A DNA stretch of 64,000 nucleotides from Mediterranea sp. An20 (GTDB lineage Bacteria; Bacteroidota; Bacteroidia; Bacteroidales; Bacteroidaceae): the NCBI RefSeq assembly GCF_002160055.1, contig NZ_NFJV01000020.1, positions 1 through 64,000 on the forward strand, written 5' to 3'. The position numbers and the translations under genes are program-made. Positions 4,625-64,000 of the stretch are shown here, piece after piece (within the stretch, counting starts at the first letter, position 1; each line of letters begins with the position of its first letter). Under the pieces are notes generated by a model that saw only the letters and a program-made list of their open reading frames with translations, was not told the origin of the DNA and did not search any database.

Positions 4625-4709
4625 AAAATGCCTTTCATTGTTTGGAGGTTTCCCGATGAATGCATTAATTTGCAGGACATAAGTAATCAATTAGATTTAA
4701 TTTATATCC

Positions 4710-4871
4710 AACACAGAGACACGGAGCCACAAAGTTCTGTAACTGTCTGTCGGTAAAAATGACGGGAGGGCACAGAGTCCGCGGCTTCGCCGCATACGAG
4801 AGAAGGAAAATTAACTCTGGGAGCTGTGGACAAGAAAACAAAAACTCTGTGTTTCCGTGCTTCTGTGTTTA
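4710..4871 (-). repeat. CACAGAGACAC-type intergenic repeat, copy 1
   Basis: This is a 162-bp non-coding block bounded by AACACAGAGACACGGAG on the left and the inverted form (CCGTGCTTCTGTGTTTA) on the right. The centre carries a GCGGCTTCGCCGC palindrome. It aligns over its whole length with copies at 24525, 29705 and 63438, the latter in reverse orientation. Homology with the 63.6-kb copy continues about 30 bp beyond the left terminus (TTGATTACTTATG on the minus strand). No open frame is shared by the copies. Confidence 0.8.
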
Positions 4872-4872
4872 G

Positions 4873-5010
4873 TATCAACCGACCAGCCCGTTGAGCGCCG
4901 TGCCGTTGACGTATATCGCCCGGATGATGAAGTCGCAAGGCATTTCTCCGGAGGACATAGCCTTGTTTACGAAATTAAGTTTGGATGAGATAAACAGACT
5001 TGGGTTATAA
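4873..5010 (+). pseudogene. C-terminal remnant of an Rpn-type nuclease
   Basis: An open frame ending with TAA 5008-5010 encodes ARMMKSQGISPEDIALFTKL and then SLDEINRL. This resembles the conserved helical tail of Rpn-family recombination-promoting nuclease/putative transposase proteins. No start codon or nuclease domain remains: the CACAGAGACAC repeat abuts the fragment on its left. The assignment rests on the tail motif only. Confidence 0.4.
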
Positions 5011-24509: not shown

Positions 24510-24524
24510 GGATGAAGTGATATT

Positions 24525-24679
24525 AACACAGAGACACAGAGGCACAGAGTTTTTTTCTTGTTCACGGTTCACAGGGTTAATTTCCCTTCCGTGTGTGGCG
24601 AAGCCGCGGACTCCGTGGTCTCCCTGTCATTTTTCCGACAGACCGTTACGGAACTTTGTGTCTCTGTGTCTCTGCGTTT
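24525..24679 (+). repeat. CACAGAGACAC-type intergenic repeat, copy 2
   Basis: This 155-bp non-coding block lies between wzz and wza. Its ends are AACACAGAGACACAGAG and GTCTCTGTGTCTCTGCGTTT, and the centre has GGCGAAGCCGCGGAC. It is in the same orientation as the copy at 63438. The flanking GATATAAACCATTGATTACT is also shared with that copy, so the conserved unit extends past the terminal repeat almost to the wza start codon. Confidence 0.8.
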
Positions 24680-24708
24680 GATATAAACCATTGATTACTT
24701 ATATAAAT

Positions 24709-29704: not shown

Positions 29705-29873
29705 AAACGCGGAGACGCGGAGACACGGAGACGCAGAGTTCCGTTATTTCCTGTCGGAAAAATGGCGGGAGAGACGCGGAGCTCACGGCTTCGCTGCACT
29801 GGAGAAGGGAAAATAACTCTGTGAGCTATGGAGAAGAAAACAAAAACTCTGTGTCTCCGTGCCTCTGTGTTTA
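29705..29873 (-). repeat. CACAGAGACAC-type intergenic repeat, copy 3
   Basis: This 169-bp block lies between the divergent DUF5063 and Ogt genes, in reverse orientation to copies 2 and 4. Its left end is expanded by extra GGAGACxC units (AAACGCGGAGACGCGGAGAC), and its right end is CCGTGCCTCTGTGTTTA. The following 29877-29899 (TCATTTAATTTTGCACATTT...) also matches the flank of copy 4. A lone half-site, GTGTCTCTGCGCTCC, follows at 29912-29926. Confidence 0.8.
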
Positions 29874-29999
29874 GTGTCATTTAATTTTGCACATTTACTT
29901 AATCTGATTTGTGTCTCTGCGCTCCTTAATTTATTATGAAAAAAGGATGGACGGTATGGCAGAAAAAACTATCTTTGCTTTTGTTTGCGATAAGTAAAG

Positions 30000-33612: not shown

Positions 33613-35484
33613 ATGGCAGAAAACAAAGAAAAACTCTTCTCCGACTTTCCATCCGTCAGCACTCAGGAATGGATGGACAAAGTCACGGCCGACCTGAAAG
33701 GTGCCGATTTTGAGAAGAAACTCGTTTGGCGCACAAACGAAGGATTCAATGTGAAACCTTTCTATCGCCGTGAAGACCTCGAAGGGCTCCGCATCACCGA
33801 TGCTCTGCCTGGTGAGTTCCCTTATCTGCGCGGCACGAAGAAAAACGACAATTCCTGGCTTATCCGTCAGGACATCCGTGTGGAAGACCCTGCGGAGGCC
33901 AATGCCAAAGCACTCGACATCCTGAATCGGGGCGTGGACTCCTTGGGCTTCAGCATCAAGGCCAAGCAATTGGATGAGGCTTATCTGGAAACTCTACTCA
34001 AGGACATTTGCGCCGAGTGCGTGGAACTGAACTTCTCCACTTGCCAGGGACATGTGGTCGAACTGGCTCATCTGTTAGTGGCTTATTTCAAGAAGCACGG
34101 ATATGACCTCTCCAAGCTCCGTGGCTCCATAGCCTACGACCCGCTGGGCAAGATGCTCTCCAAAGGCAAGGAGCGTACTCTCATGGCCGAAACGGGCAAG
34201 GCGTTGCTGGATGCCACTGCCGAACTTTGCGGCTATCAGGTGCTTGGCGTGGACGCGTCTTTGCTTTGCAATGCCGGTGCCTATATCTATCAGGAACTGG
34301 GCTATGCGTTGGCGTGGGGTAATGAGTATATGAATGCCCTGACCGAAGTCGGTGTGCCTGCCGCTACGGTGGCCAGAAACATCCGGTTCAATTTCGGCAT
34401 CTCTTCCAATTACTTCATGGAAATCGCCAAGTTCCGCGCTGCCCGCATGCTTTGGGCAGACATTGTAGAGCAGTATCTGGGCGAGGGCGAATGCAAATGT
34501 GCCGCCAAGATGCACGTACATGCCGAGACTTCCAAGTTCAATTTGACGCTCTTCGATTCGTATGTCAACCTGCTCCGCACACAGACAGAGGCCATGAGTG
34601 CGGCTTTGGCAGGTGTAGACTCCATGACGGTTCTGCCTTTCGATGCCGCCTATGAGACTCCCACCGAATTTTCCGAACGTCTGGCGCGCAACCAGCAGTT
34701 GTTGCTCCGCGAAGAGTCGCACTTCGATAAGGTGGTCGACCCGGCCGGCGGTTCTTATTACATTGAAAACCTGACAGCTTCTATCGCCGCCCAAGCCTGG
34801 AAACTCTTCCTGGCGATGGAAGAAGAAGGCGGATTCTATGCTGCTGTCAAGGCGGGTAAGGTGCAGGAAGCTGTCAATGCCAGCAATAAAGCCCGCCATG
34901 AGGCTGTTGCCCGCCGAAAGGAGATTCTCTTGGGTACCAACCAATATCCCAACTTCACCGAACTGGCCGGCGAGAAGCGTCCGATGGAAGCCACATGCTG
35001 CTGTGGAGGAGGCCATGAACATACGTGTGAGAAAGACTGTGCTTCGCTCGACTTCTCGCGTGCAGCCAGCCAGTTTGAGGCATTGCGTCTGGAAACGGAG
35101 CAGAGCGGCAAGCGCCCGAAGGCCTTCATGCTTACCATCGGCAATCTGGCCATGCGGCAGGCACGTGCCCAGTTCTCGTGCAATTTCCTGGCCTGTGCCG
35201 GTTATGAAGTTATCGACAACTTAGGCTTTGCTTCCGTTCAGGAAGGCATCGATGCTGCTATGGCTGCCAAGGCCGACATCGTGGTGCTCTGCTCCAGCGA
35301 CGATGAATATGCCGAATATGCCATTCCTGCCTTCCAGGCTTTGGCCGGGCGTGCCATGTTCATAGTGGCAGGGGCTCCCGCCTGCATGGACGAGCTGAAG
35401 GCTGCCGGCATCGAGAACTTCATCCATGTCCGTGTCAATGTGTTGGAAACACTGAGAGAATACAATAAGCAGTTATTAAAGTAG
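33613..35484 (+). CDS. mutA: Methylmalonyl-CoA mutase small (beta) subunit
   Basis: The 623-residue protein aligns by eye with MutB over the TIM-barrel part (VDPAGGSYYIENLTASIAAQAW) and ends in a B12-domain-like fold (VVLCSSDDEYAEYAIPAF) that lacks the DxHxxG cobalamin motif, as expected for the non-catalytic subunit. With MutB it interconverts succinyl-CoA and methylmalonyl-CoA in the propionate pathway. An odd cysteine/histidine-rich stretch (ATCCCGGGHEHTCEKDC, about residues 458-474) joins the two domains. The stop codon is the last base before a mobile insertion that separates it from mutB. Confidence 0.93.
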   Translation: MAENKEKLFSDFPSVSTQEWMDKVTADLKGADFEKKLVWRTNEGFNVKPFYRREDLEGLRITDALPGEFPYLRGTKKNDNSWLIRQDIRVEDPAEANAKALDILNRGVDSLGFSIKAKQLDEAYLETLLKDICAECVELNFSTCQGHVVELAHLLVAYFKKHGYDLSKLRGSIAYDPLGKMLSKGKERTLMAETGKALLDATAELCGYQVLGVDASLLCNAGAYIYQELGYALAWGNEYMNALTEVGVPAATVARNIRFNFGISSNYFMEIAKFRAARMLWADIVEQYLGEGECKCAAKMHVHAETSKFNLTLFDSYVNLLRTQTEAMSAALAGVDSMTVLPFDAAYETPTEFSERLARNQQLLLREESHFDKVVDPAGGSYYIENLTASIAAQAWKLFLAMEEEGGFYAAVKAGKVQEAVNASNKARHEAVARRKEILLGTNQYPNFTELAGEKRPMEATCCCGGGHEHTCEKDCASLDFSRAASQFEALRLETEQSGKRPKAFMLTIGNLAMRQARAQFSCNFLACAGYEVIDNLGFASVQEGIDAAMAAKADIVVLCSSDDEYAEYAIPAFQALAGRAMFIVAGAPACMDELKAAGIENFIHVRVNVLETLREYNKQLLK

Positions 35485-35986
35485 AACACAGAGACACAAA
35501 GTCACAGAGTATTTATGGATATACTGCAACGGGATTATTACAATGCTTTGAGCAATAAAATTATCGGAGCAGCTATTGATATCCATCGGGAATTAGGACC
35601 GGGACTATTAGAGACAGTGTATGAGGCTTGTTTGATAGCTGAGTTACATGACCGCGGATTGCAGGTTGATAGTCAGGTTGAACTTCCTGTTTATTATAAG
35701 GGGCATAAGTTGCATAAGGATTTCCGGATAGATTTATTGGTGGAGGATAAGATTATTGTAGAGTTGAAAGCTGTGGAAGAATTGAAAGATGTTCATGAAG
35801 TGCAGTTGGTCACCTACTTAAAGTTAGCCAATAAGAAATTGGGATTGCTTATCAATTTCAATGTTCCTGTGTTGATGCAAGGAGTTAAAAGAAGAATTAA
35901 CGGTTATTTTTGAACGAGAATAATTTTGACTCTGTGTCTTTGTAGCATAAAACATTAATCTTTGTGTCTTTGTGCCTCTGTGTTTA
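35485..35986 (+). mobile_element. 502-bp GxxExxY element inserted between mutA and mutB
   Basis: The element runs from AACACAGAGACACAAAG directly after the mutA stop to TTTGTGCCTCTGTGTTTA 15 bp before mutB. The termini are inverted repeats of the same type as the four 155-169 bp intergenic repeats in this window. A second half-site, CTCTGTGTCTTTGTAG (35930-35945), follows the gene, so the right end is doubled. The only gene inside is the GxxExxY nuclease-like gene. Mobility is inferred from shared termini and from interruption of an otherwise tight gene pair. Confidence 0.65.
35515..35913 (+). CDS. GxxExxY family protein (PD-(D/E)XK nuclease-like)
   Basis: The 132-residue protein carries the family-defining GLLETVY (Gly30, Glu33, Tyr36) after GAAIDIHRELGPG. 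The PD-(D/E)XK-like core is Asp73 in FRIDLLV and Glu83/Lys85 in VELKAVEEL, followed by HEVQLVTYLKLANKKLGLLINF. The family (PF13366) is widespread and of unknown role; the fold suggests a nuclease. Lower G+C than mutA and mutB and flanking inverted repeats indicate that it arrived as a unit. The start ATG 35515 lies 30 bp inside the left terminus. Confidence 0.88.
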   Translation: MDILQRDYYNALSNKIIGAAIDIHRELGPGLLETVYEACLIAELHDRGLQVDSQVELPVYYKGHKLHKDFRIDLLVEDKIIVELKAVEELKDVHEVQLVTYLKLANKKLGLLINFNVPVLMQGVKRRINGYF

Positions 35987-36001: not shown

Positions 36002-38149
36002 ATGAGAAAAGATTTCAAGAACATCGATATATATGCCGACTTCAAGCCCGCCAACGGGGCAGAGTGGCAAAAAAACAACGGCATCCATGCAGATTGGAAG
36101 ACGCCGGAACACATCGAAGTGAAGCCTGTTTATACCAAGGAAGACTTGGAAGGCATGGAACATCTGGATTATGCTGCCGGCATTCCGCCTTATTTACGCG
36201 GACCGTATTCCATGATGTATACCTTCCGTCCGTGGACCATCCGCCAGTATGCCGGATTCTCCACTGCCGAAGAGTCTAATGCATTCTATCGCCGCAATCT
36301 CGCCAGTGGCCAGAAGGGTTTGTCTGTTGCTTTCGACCTGCCTACACACCGTGGCTATGACCCCGACAATGAGCGTGTGGTGGGCGATGTAGGTAAGGCT
36401 GGCGTGTCTATCTGCTCGTTGGAGAACATGAAGGTGCTTTTCGAGGGTATTCCTTTGAATAAAATGTCCGTTTCCATGACGATGAACGGTGCCGTGCTGC
36501 CCGTCATGGCTTTCTACATTAATGCCGGTCTGGAGCAGGGCGCCAAGCTGGAGGAGATGGCCGGTACCATCCAGAACGACATCCTGAAGGAGTTCATGGT
36601 GCGCAACACTTACATCTATCCACCCGCATTCTCCATGAAGATTATTTCCGACATCTTCGAGTACACCTCGCAGAAGATGCCTAAGTTCAACTCCATCTCC
36701 ATTTCCGGCTATCACATGCAGGAAGCCGGTGCCACGGCCGACATCGAACTGGCTTATACCCTGGCTGACGGTCTGGAATATCTGCGTGCCGGTGTCAATG
36801 CCGGGTTGGACATCGATGCCTTTGCCCCGCGCTTGTCTTTCTTCTGGGCCATCGGAACCAACCACTTCATGGAAATCGCCAAGATGCGTGCTGCCCGTAT
36901 GCTGTGGGCCAAGATTGTGAAGCAGTTCAACCCGAAGAATCCCAAGTCGCTGGCACTGCGCACTCACTCACAGACATCCGGCTGGTCGCTCACCGAGCAA
37001 GACCCCTTCAACAACGTGGGACGTACCTGTATCGAGGCCATGGCGGCTGCCTTGGGTCACACGCAATCGCTGCATACCAATGCCTTGGACGAGGCCATCG
37101 CTCTGCCTACCGACTTCTCCGCCCGCATTGCCCGCAATACGCAGATTTATATCCAGGAAGAGACTTACATCTGCAAGAACGTCGACCCGTGGGCAGGTTC
37201 TTACTATGTGGAGTCTTTGACCAATGAGATTGCCCACAAGGCATGGGAGCATATTCAGGAAATCGAGAAACTGGGCGGTATGGCCAAGGCCATTGAAACC
37301 GGCTTGCCCAAGATGCGCATCGAAGAGGCGGCTGCCCGCACGCAAGCCCGCATCGACAGCGGCACGCAGACCATCGTGGGCGTGAACCGGTATCGCTTGG
37401 ACAAGGAGGCTCCCATCGACATCCTGGAGATTGACAATACGGCCGTGCGCCAGGAGCAGGAAGAGAACCTGAAGAAGCTGAAAGCCAACCGCAACCAGGC
37501 TGAGGTGGACAAGGCGTTGGATGCTATCACCGAATGTGTCAAGACCGGCAAGGGCAACCTGCTGGAGCTTGCCGTCGAGGCTGCCCGGGTACGTGCCACG
37601 CTGGGCGAAATCTCATACGCATGCGAGAAAGTTGTAGGACGTTATAAAGCAATCATCAGAACCATATCAGGCGTGTATTCATCAGAAAGTAAAAACGATG
37701 CAGACTTCGCCAAGGCATGTGAACTGTGCGAGAAGTTTGCCAAGAAGGAAGGTCGCCAGCCGCGTATCATGATAGCCAAGATGGGCCAGGACGGGCACGA
37801 CCGTGGTGCAAAAGTAGTGGCTACGGGTTATGCCGACTGCGGTTTCGACGTAGACATGGGTCCGTTGTTCCAGACTCCGGCCGAGGCTGCGCGCGAAGCG
37901 GTGGAAAACGATGTTCATGCCGTGGGCGTATCGTCGTTGGCTGCCGGTCATAAGACGCTCATCCCTCAGCTGATTGCCGAACTGAAGAAGTTGGGCCGTG
38001 AGGACATCGTGGTGTTTGCCGGTGGTGTCATTCCTCCGCAGGATTATGATTTCCTCTATCAGGCAGGTGTGGCTGCCATCTTCGGGCCGGGTACTCCGGT
38101 GGCCAAGGCTGCTTGTCAGATATTGGATATTCTGATGGACGAGGAATAA
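36002..38149 (+). CDS. mutB: Methylmalonyl-CoA mutase large (alpha) subunit
   Basis: From ATG 36002 the protein has 715 residues, the standard MutB length. The substrate-binding barrel is complete ([35 protein letters not shown]). The C-terminal cobalamin domain has MGQDGHDRG with the cobalt ligand His599, then [12 protein letters not shown] and [13 protein letters not shown]. It is the catalytic subunit that works with MutA. The 16-base leader after the mobile element includes AAAAAGAATT as the only upstream translation signal, so transcription probably reads through the insertion from mutA. Confidence 0.95.
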
Positions 38150-38282: not shown

Positions 38283-38371
38283 AACACAGAGACACGGAGT
38301 TTATTTCTGAAGAGGGGGAGAGTGCACGGAGCGAAAGTTTTGACTTCGTGTCTCTGCGCTCCATTTCTTCT
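38283..38371. repeat. Short CACAGAGACAC-type repeat
   Basis: AACACAGAGACACGGAG at the left and CGTGTCTCTGCGCTCC at the right enclose about 55 bp unrelated to the core of the long copies. It appears to be an internally deleted member of the family. From here to 38510 no gene is visible. Confidence 0.65.
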
Positions 38372-38545: not shown

Positions 38546-38551
38546 CAGAGT

Positions 38552-38612
38552 GTTTTTCATAGTATTAGATTTTAAGGTTAACAAAGGTTGGGCTCAGCGG
38601 AGCCCTTTTTTT
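38552..38612 (+). ncRNA. Candidate small RNA of about 60 nt
   Basis: A full consensus promoter predicts transcription from about 38552. The intrinsic terminator GGGCTC-AGCG-GAGCCC with seven T ends at 38612. No start codon with a useful frame lies between. A promoter followed so closely by a terminator suggests a small RNA or an attenuated leader. I do not recognise an RNA family. Confidence 0.5.
38590..38612 (+). terminator. Intrinsic terminator
   Basis: A six-base GC stem GGGCTC/GAGCCC with an AGCG loop is followed by seven T. It ends the candidate small RNA. The following 38613-38903 shows only a CCAAGCTCT direct repeat near 38690-38716 and no gene. Confidence 0.85.
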
Positions 38613-38903
38613 ATGTCTGTATGCATGCGATTCCCGTTTGCCTCCATGCCAGAAAGCAGTATATACATATATTTATAAACTACATTTCCAAGCTCTTTGA
38701 CGCCGATTGCCAAGCTCTAAGCATCGCGGTGCCGGACTATGGGGAGCATGGTGCTTGTCACTTAGAAACAACCGTCTGTCTGCCAGAGAGATAGGGATTT
38801 TGTAATAACCGGTTTTCTAACTCCCGGCGGGCAGTGGTATGCATGGCTCTGAACAACAGGGAGAGAAATGCGTGGGGATGTCTCGGGAAAAGCATAAAAG
38901 TTA

Positions 38904-63390: not shown

Positions 63391-63437
63391 AGCTGTCTTG
63401 TTAATGGTCAGTAAATGTGCAAAATTAAATGATACTG

Positions 63438-63598
63438 AACACAGAGGCACGGAGACACAGAGCTTTTGTTTTCTTGTCCATAGCTCACAGAGTTAATTTC
63501 CCTTCTCTCGTATGCGGCGAAGCCGCGGACTCTGTGACCTCCCGTCATTTTTACCGACAGACAGTTACAGAACTTTGTGTCTCTGTGTCTCTGTGTTT
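63438..63598 (+). repeat. CACAGAGACAC-type intergenic repeat, copy 4
   Basis: This 161-bp block lies between the hflX and DUF4954 genes. Its ends are AACACAGAGGCACGGAG and GTCTCTGTGTCTCTGTGTTT, and the centre has GCGGCGAAGCCGCGGAC. It is the closest relative of copy 1 (inverted), with most positions identical, and shares right-flank GATTGATTACTTATG with copies 1 and 2. Confidence 0.82.
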
Positions 63599-63647
63599 GA
63601 TATAAACTAATTCTGATTGATTACTTATGGAGCAAAAGTTTCCCCGG

Positions 63648-64000
63648 TTATTCCTCTTCCTCGTATGACTGGTACAGGAAGTCGTTGTAGGGATATTTCT
63701 GCACGTGCAGTTCTTTGACGCGGGCATAGACCACACGTCGCAGTTCGTCTATGTTGATGCGTTCGCGGGCAGAGATGAAGATGCAGTCGCCTGCCATTTT
63801 TGCCATCCAGGTATTCATCAGCTCCTCCAGGGTAAGGTTTTCCCTCGTTTTCGGTGTGAGGTCGTCTTCGGCCTTCTTTACGTAGGTATAGGCATCGGTC
63901 TTGTTGAAGATTATCATCATGGGTTTACCGGCAGCCCCTATATCGGCCAGTGTCCTGTTCACCACTTCAATCTGTTCTTCAAAGTCGGGGTGGCTGATGT
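63648..64000 (-). CDS. hflX: GTPase HflX, C-terminal part (runs off the window)
   Basis: The last 117 residues are present. IIFNKTDAY is the GTPase G4 (NKxD) motif and IFISARERINIDELRRVV is the G5/SAR region, followed by a short acidic tail (YQSYEEEE). The upstream ISHPDFEEQIEVVNRTL is the typical HflX stretch before G4. HflX splits or rescues ribosomes in stress. The remaining N-terminal part lies beyond the window end. Confidence 0.85.
   Translation of the reverse strand, partial: ISHPDFEEQIEVVNRTLADIGAAGKPMMIIFNKTDAYTYVKKAEDDLTPKTRENLTLEELMNTWMAKMAGDCIFISARERINIDELRRVVYARVKELHVQKYPYNDFLYQSYEEEE

Follow-up and report, generated by a model that had tools for sequence, protein, structure and literature searches.

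A multicopy, TA-flanked and probably MITE-like composite repeat with an ORF-less GxxExxY-type hairpin in Mediterranea sp. An20

The related non-coding repeats found in a window of 64,000 nucleotides from Mediterranea sp. An20 (the whole stretch of contig NZ_NFJV01000020.1 analysed here) represent a real element that, as judged from its sequence, appears to be a multicopy TA-flanked composite of a MITE-like shell and an ORF-less hairpin of the GxxExxY type. We favor the reading, with a probability of roughly 0.65, that the repeats are a non-autonomous TA-targeting MITE which carries a second, ORF-less GxxExxY-type hairpin as its interior. The repeats are probably MITE-like in that they are short, non-coding, multicopy units with inverted ends, the TA duplication resting on one empty site. 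A preliminary description of the window had reported four repeats at 63438, 24525, 4710 and 29705 that align end to end, and both the positions and the alignment hold. Two copies lie in each orientation (63438 and 24525 on the plus strand, 4710 and 29705 on the minus strand) and all four are intergenic. The window contains 24 occurrences of the sequence CACAGAGNCACNGAG at up to two mismatches, compared to 0.99 expected. The innermost palindrome GCGGCGAAGCCGC is exact in the copies at 63438 and 4710, contains one change in the copy at 24525 and more changes in the copy at 29705.

Both outer arms are retained in one window copy only, which alignment places at 63408..63627 on the plus strand as the complete composite unit of outer arm, inner CACAGAG hairpin and outer arm. 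It consists of the left, MITE-type outer arm (63408..63437, +; the flanking dinucleotide of this copy is TC), the inner hairpin of inverted tandem CACAGAG units, which is the stretch described initially (63438..63598, +) and encloses the innermost palindrome (63514..63526), and the right outer arm GATATAAACTAATTCTGATTGATTACT-TA (63599..63627, +). This unit occupies the whole gap from the end of an hflX-like gene (63648-63965, -) to a DUF4954 gene (start approximately 63390, -). The left outer arm is lost from the composite copy at 4680..4877 (-), whose flanks are common to loci L015 and L017, and it is lost or decayed in the copy at 24512..24701 (+), which lies between wzz-like and polysaccharide-export genes. 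The copy at 29705..29901 (-) lost its right outer arm, which is replaced by extra CGCGGAG units. At 38283..38362 (+) lies a short CACAGAG hairpin that has neither an ORF nor outer arms. The same-flank loci L015, L017, L019 and L132 all carry the 220-bp unit; three of them share the insertion position downstream of an AAA-ATPase-like gene, which is a PF09820 gene beside the window copy, and the position in L132 differs.

A DNA search of the genome (3.84 Mb in 88 contigs; the assembly is 96% complete) yielded 51 matching pieces. After removal of pieces aligned over fewer than 140 bases and of double counts from overlapping loci, the family comprises at least 41 copies, each aligned over at least 140 bp (40 of 120 candidates scored). 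The genome-wide count and alignment proposed in the preliminary description show the unit to be short, non-coding and multicopy, and its ends are defined. Among 32 near-complete copies the pairwise identity has a median of 92% and a minimum of 77%, and the innermost palindrome is present within two substitutions in 41/41 copies, with GGCGAAGCC exact in 33. By mechanical ORF calls, 35 of the 41 copies have no overlap of more than 60 bp with any predicted ORF of at least 80 aa, and six do overlap. The neighboring genes are found in all orientations (12 ++, 11 -+, 11 --, 5 +-, and two copies with one side unknown). No match at E<=1e-20 was obtained in the other 157 genomes of the genus (158 searched, with five candidates scored per genome), and a plasmid search gave no match.

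Alignment of the copies with 60-base flanks delimits a unit of approximately 220 bp, TA-AGTAA...TTACT-TA, with the left end TA-AGTAAATGTGCAAAATTAAATGATACTAA and the right end GATATAAACTAATTCTGATTGATTACT-TA, at which the homology among copies stops. The homology noted earlier beyond the CACAGAG termini is therefore real and continues to the outer arms in most copies. The CACAGAG sequences themselves, which had been regarded as the termini of the unit, were rejected as such: the real ends are TA-AGTAA/TTACT-TA, and in sister species these enclose unrelated hairpins. The terminal inverted repeat AGTAA/TTACT is perfect over 5 bases (7 with the TA) and imperfect further in. The left arm, with three mismatches allowed, occurs at 45 places in the genome and the right arm at 36, the reversed-pattern controls giving 0. 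A TA lies just outside the left arm in 24/32 copies and just outside the right arm in 29/32, against a background of 6% in the outer flanks, and it is present on both sides in 16 of the 26 copies with both arms. Since the L012 flanks joined by a single TA match an uninterrupted stretch of L003 at 36/37 bases, insertion at TA with duplication of the TA is likely, as seen at this single empty site; L012 and L003 are both situated in relatives of one intergenic repeat. TA is also the target of the Correia elements of Neisseria and of the RUP elements of pneumococcus.

These ends bear directly on the question whether a mobile element is involved at all. Palindromes might instead have grown and spread as passive products of template switching, repeat recombination and slippage during replication, which would fit the tandem unit expansions in the copies L028, L029 and 29705 as well as the search for the one transposase family sought, the IS630-type, which found no DDE_3 (PF13358) match in the genome; quasi-palindrome correction would moreover be expected to produce arms that match in a locus-specific manner. 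We consider passive spread unlikely, as it accounts neither for the sharp limits of a 220-bp unit that lies at TA, in 41 or more places and with a median identity of 92%, nor for the empty site that indicates a TA duplication. For the TA-targeting MITE, the composite would have multiplied in this species by means of a TA-specific transposase acting in trans, which may have been lost, may be unassembled or may come from a family outside the search. An exact-pattern search of viral contigs gave no match to the outer arms. The locus L128 (C4:4000-9500), in which the outer arms are 4.4 kb apart, was considered as an autonomous element and rejected, the core being simply interrupted. Between its arms lie a gene that resembles those of tyrosine recombinases, with scores below the family cut-offs, and other genes, two of which we presume to be SMR-like.

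The two layers of the unit occur separately across the genomes of the genus. The left outer arm is present in 15 of 99 genus genomes, the window genome included. At arm loci outside the window genome, a TA is found outside the left arm in 25 of the 27 loci read, and a right arm follows inside 445 bases in 18 of the 27 by a loose match (up to 8 errors), 14 of these being firm and the doubtful ones being L066, L075 and L081 at the 8-error limit and L084, which spans a second element. The interiors of these shells in other species are mutually unrelated and comprise inverted tandem repeats of the CGCAGAT, ACCACAGAT, GTTTAGTG and GAAGAATGAAG types and palindromes of the GTAGGAGGTGCCGC, GTAGGGGCG, CCTCCTCC and TGTCATCCTGAGC types; the shells L079, L064 and L085 are nearly empty. 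CACAGAG inner hairpins without outer arms are found in turn in G035, G045, G082 and other genomes. As the same arms surround different hairpins, or almost nothing, in sister species, the unit is composite. The nesting can be deeper: in L093 a TGTCAT-type palindrome lies within CGCAGAT arms, which lie within outer arms, and L081 is nested alike with a decayed right outer arm. In this genome, a AGGGTGTGTCA...TGATACACCCT element takes the place of the innermost palindrome in L146, and sequences of the AGGGTGTGTCA kind flank a CACAGAG hairpin on both sides in G038 (L041). Related shells (TAAGTAGCCGTTCATAATTAGTTTATA..., AAGTAGTTGTTGATATTTAGTTTATATG) with palindromes of the TGTCATTCTGAGCGAAGC type were also observed in this genome at L129, L135, L139 and L145.

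The window contains a gene-bearing counterpart of the inner hairpin at 35485..35984 (+), in which CACAGAG/CACAAAG arms surround a GxxExxY gene (35515..35913, +; TIGR04256, E 1.5e-46; PDDEXK_3, E 3.2e-45) and no outer MITE arms were seen. It lies between mutA (33613-35484) and mutB (36002-38149), which encode the small and the large subunit of methylmalonyl-CoA mutase; the first base of the hairpin directly follows the mutA stop codon. The gene is the sole match to the family in this genome, and its product contains the PD-(D/E)XK residues D73, E83 and K85. Across 107 sequences, in which that of the window is counted twice, conservation is 98-100% at E33, Y36, D73, E83, K85, Q97 and Y101, as expected of an enzyme that, by its sequence, would be an active member of the PD-(D/E)XK class. 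The similarity to Cas4 is weak (E 4e-4; Pfam 0.045), a sequence search of the PDB returned no relative, and an AlphaFold model computed without relatives is poor (pLDDT 59.5), a PDB search with this model giving nothing at E<=0.001. No relatives were found in viral contigs and no assignment of a role in the sources searched.

GxxExxY genes score above the cut-off in 60/149 genomes of the genus and in 50/99 genomes of a phylum sample, and they are mostly embedded in inverted repeats. With 330-base flanks, a score of at least 16 and control stretches located 670-1000 bases further out, inverted repeats were detected at 53/56 genus and phylum loci versus 3/56 further-out stretches, and at 46/49 further genus loci versus 1/48 control stretches, so that for Bacteroidota 99 of 105 loci combined lie within inverted repeats compared to 4/104 for the distant control. 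The 56-locus set contains the best-scoring loci, three having been omitted for length, two of which were refetched into the 49-locus set; some of the 105 loci are near-copies in sister species, and most fragmentary genus matches are outside the sample. The flanks of an unrelated gene (DUF4954) contain inverted repeats in 3/60 cases. The arms usually consist of about three 7-mers with 1-3 bases between them, such as CACAGAG, CGCAGAT, CACGGAT and CGCAAAG. Of the 46 inverted repeats in the second set, 26 contain a strict two-unit CRCNRAK pattern and others use different units, for example AGACATAAGAACA; the tandem-7-mer kind is not clearly recognizable in a few of the 99 (L267, L283). This widespread family is thus tied to a defined DNA architecture, and its own hairpin is a candidate substrate.

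The inverted CACAGAG repeats of the inner hairpin are of the same kind as the arms of the window GxxExxY hairpin, but the repeats lack the ORF, and a tblastn search of the five window units revealed no remnant of a GxxExxY gene. From its sequence, the inner hairpin looks like an empty version of the gene-bearing hairpin. The earlier proposal of a non-autonomous relative of the GxxExxY element is accordingly sustained for the inner hairpin, by arms of the kind seen at 99/105 loci, and fails for the whole 220-bp unit. A simpler form of this proposal treats the repeats as plain GxxExxY derivatives, with the CACAGAG ends as mobile termini and the flanking homology as incidental. The likeness of the arms to those of the window GxxExxY hairpin and the arm-less CACAGAG hairpins of other genomes speak for it; yet most copies are homologous out to TA-AGTAA/TTACT-TA, and those arms hold other hairpins elsewhere, which makes it quite improbable and confines it to arm-less hairpins like that at 38283-38362.

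A second family of small proteins is housed in the same manner. Four-helix-bundle TIGR02436 genes in Bacteroides, sampled as the best-scoring loci among L286-L315 with three omitted for length, have arms of inverted tandem units in 27/27 loci versus 0/27 for the control. The units (AGTTGACA, AGCTACGA, GAGTTATG and others) differ from those of GxxExxY. We take TIGR02436 to be the family of proteins that is encoded in intervening sequences (IVS) of 23S rRNA. According to the available part of a report on Coxiella, the IVS is a selfish element of 428 nt whose 28-bp stem is cut by RNase III and whose four-helix S23p ORF is preceded by tandem heptamers GACAGAT (PMC4990558). The hairpins studied here resemble the IVS of Coxiella and Leptospira, as far as that part of the source describes them, in having a hairpin stem and a small ORF in the loop (PMC4990558). 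Unlike these, they lie outside rRNA, have locus-specific arms and, in the CACAGAG class, contain a PD-(D/E)XK-family protein in place of the ORF; the window copies are surrounded by protein genes, not by 23S rRNA. The S23p/IVS elements may hence belong to a wider group that is found outside rRNA, as these data suggest.

The two arms of a hairpin fit each other better than they fit the arms of other loci. Among 31 non-redundant GxxExxY loci, the fit to the own partner has a median of 22.5 versus 11 to others, the own right arm beats all others in 16/31 loci, and 0 of 5000 permutations of the arm pairing reach the observed mean. For 14 non-redundant TIGR02436 loci, the permutations likewise gave 0/5000. 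For these sets, loci with shared flanks were removed (31 of 56 GxxExxY and 14 of 27 TIGR02436 loci kept); before removal, 6/2000 and 5/2000 permutations, respectively, reached the observed mean. At one orthologous site, identified by the start of the neighboring gene, both arms switched units together: the 28-base arms match at 28 positions in L230, 28 in L235, 26 in L233 and 27 in L240. L240 compared with L230 and L235 shows 5 and 6 double changes that keep the pair, no one-sided change and one double change by which the pairing is lost, and L233 has two one-sided changes. The pattern is less clear-cut in L241/L252, a more diverged pair with five double and six one-sided changes; L232, L244 and L253 were left out of this count. 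The matching of the arms may be maintained by quasi-palindrome correction, a mechanism that keeps arms matched, or by selection on an RNA stem as in the 23S rRNA intervening sequences.

The latter touches on the suggestion that the repeats are structured regulatory RNAs, whose transcripts form long stems for cleavage by RNase III or for attenuation in operons. The whole unit folds very stably (-80.8 kcal/mol, z -7.6), copies are found where short gaps separate co-directional genes, e.g., at 24512-24701 and 63408-63627, and precedents for the cleavage of such stems by RNase III are reported in the available parts of the sources on the Coxiella IVS (PMC4990558) and on Correia-bearing transcripts, which are cut at the inverted repeats (PMC10969869). 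The search for compensatory changes that had been proposed for a folded RNA gave a divided answer: the arms of the gene-bearing hairpins co-change across species, but the copies within this genome show weak covariation (term -0.48; double change in 2/36 pairs). The occurrence of neighboring genes in all orientations, the absence of any Rfam 15 family on the repeats at gathering score, and TA-bounded ends together with a burst in one species only, which is the pattern of a mobile element, argue against a regulatory RNA, and we regard this explanation as rather unlikely. Simple scans of the 220-bp unit revealed no promoter or terminator signals. The single Rfam match of the window, the Bacteroidetes small RNA FopS (RF04319) at 38550-38615, is unrelated to the repeats.

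For the favored TA-targeting MITE with a GxxExxY-type interior, the first step would have been that an ORF-less CACAGAG hairpin came to sit in the tip of the MITE. Inner hairpins may generally enter other hairpins at their tips, through insertion or through template switching at extruded palindromes, and cutting by the GxxExxY nuclease perhaps aids the nesting. It is also conceivable, though we put this forward tentatively and as less than an even chance, that Bacteroidota contain a general class of self-nesting hairpins with small proteins encoded in the loop (GxxExxY PD-(D/E)XK nucleases and S23-like four-helix bundles). In that class, the arms would be concerted tandem units of about 7 bp with an own unit class for each protein family, and ORF-less versions would multiply within individual species and lodge at the tips of other palindromes, including TA-MITE shells, which would spread them. 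We find this wider pattern, in which nesting hairpins with tandem-unit arms that co-evolve house small proteins, more interesting than the MITE part, which resembles a known kind of element as a variant of it.

The repeats share with the Correia and RUP MITEs the short, non-coding structure with inverted ends, the mostly intergenic location and the tens of copies. They differ from these in that the shell contains exchangeable hairpins which also live alone, and in that no partner transposase was found, the family sought being the IS630-type. Another Bacteroidota MITE, BrickBuilt of Porphyromonas gingivalis, also has inverted ends around internal tandem repeats, and the available text of its description reports 19 copies without a transposase remnant inside (PMC4596501). 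According to the same text, it differs by 23-nt direct tandem repeats, where the repeats studied here have a hairpin of inverted 7-mers, by duplications of varying length and by ends that resemble known IS ends (PMC4596501). No description of the elements reported here was found among the matches listed from the open-licence PMC literature. The REP/BIME palindromes serve as targets of other elements, and the likeness of the hairpins to these lies in palindromes acting as targets.

The individual unit types are distributed unevenly across species. Exact 8-spaced CACAGAG triples occur in 21/149 genomes of the genus, with 85 in this genome, 52 in G038, 50 in G142 and 48 in G082; the reversed control is uninformative for this pattern, which reads nearly the same backwards. 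CGCAGATTNACGCAGATT occurs in 19/149 genus genomes, with 73 occurrences in G056, 58 in G061 and 0 here (control 0). Among 79 GxxExxY loci of the genus, which come from 58 genomes, G082 and G018 have a CACNGAG pair with strict 8-spacing on both arms, G142 and G091 on a single arm. The window GxxExxY arms have the same 8-spacing with a CACAAAG unit. Of the 11 genomes with at least eight exact CACAGAG triples, four (G000, which is this genome, G018, G082 and G142) have GxxExxY arms of a like kind, four have GxxExxY in other arms and in three none was found. This suggests that the ORF-less copies are tied to a resident GxxExxY gene. However, CACAGAG copies have no clear association with the presence of any GxxExxY gene (8/13 carriers vs 43/99), G091 has one CACNGAG-type arm and no CACAGAG triples, and the fit of CGCAGAT units to the resident GxxExxY arms is poor, as G061 matches and G056 does not. 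At least 120 stretches with CACAGAG triples were found in IMG/VR contigs from many metagenomes, with an inverted partner within 900 bases in 45 of 80 loci among the matches listed, and this unit class therefore reaches far beyond the genus.

The site of the complete window unit was compared with the hflX-DUF4954 loci of relatives, of which 80 were fetched and 21 read around the gap. The nearest named loci are those of uncultured Bacteroides, 'Candidatus Bacteroides intestinipullorum' and B. heparinolyticus, which would place the host in Bacteroides or near it. The copies had been envisaged, as the contrary case, to be few and fixed at the same positions; they are many, and the 220-bp unit is absent from the 63438 gap in all 21 relatives read. 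A CACAGAG pair with up to one mismatch is absent from all 80 loci, and a different gene lies upstream of the gap in L157 and L178. The intergenic gaps in Bacteroides are, as their sequences indicate, filled by interchangeable hairpins. In the same hflX-DUF4954 gap, other Bacteroides species carry different inverted tandem repeats (L148, L149, L152 and L159).
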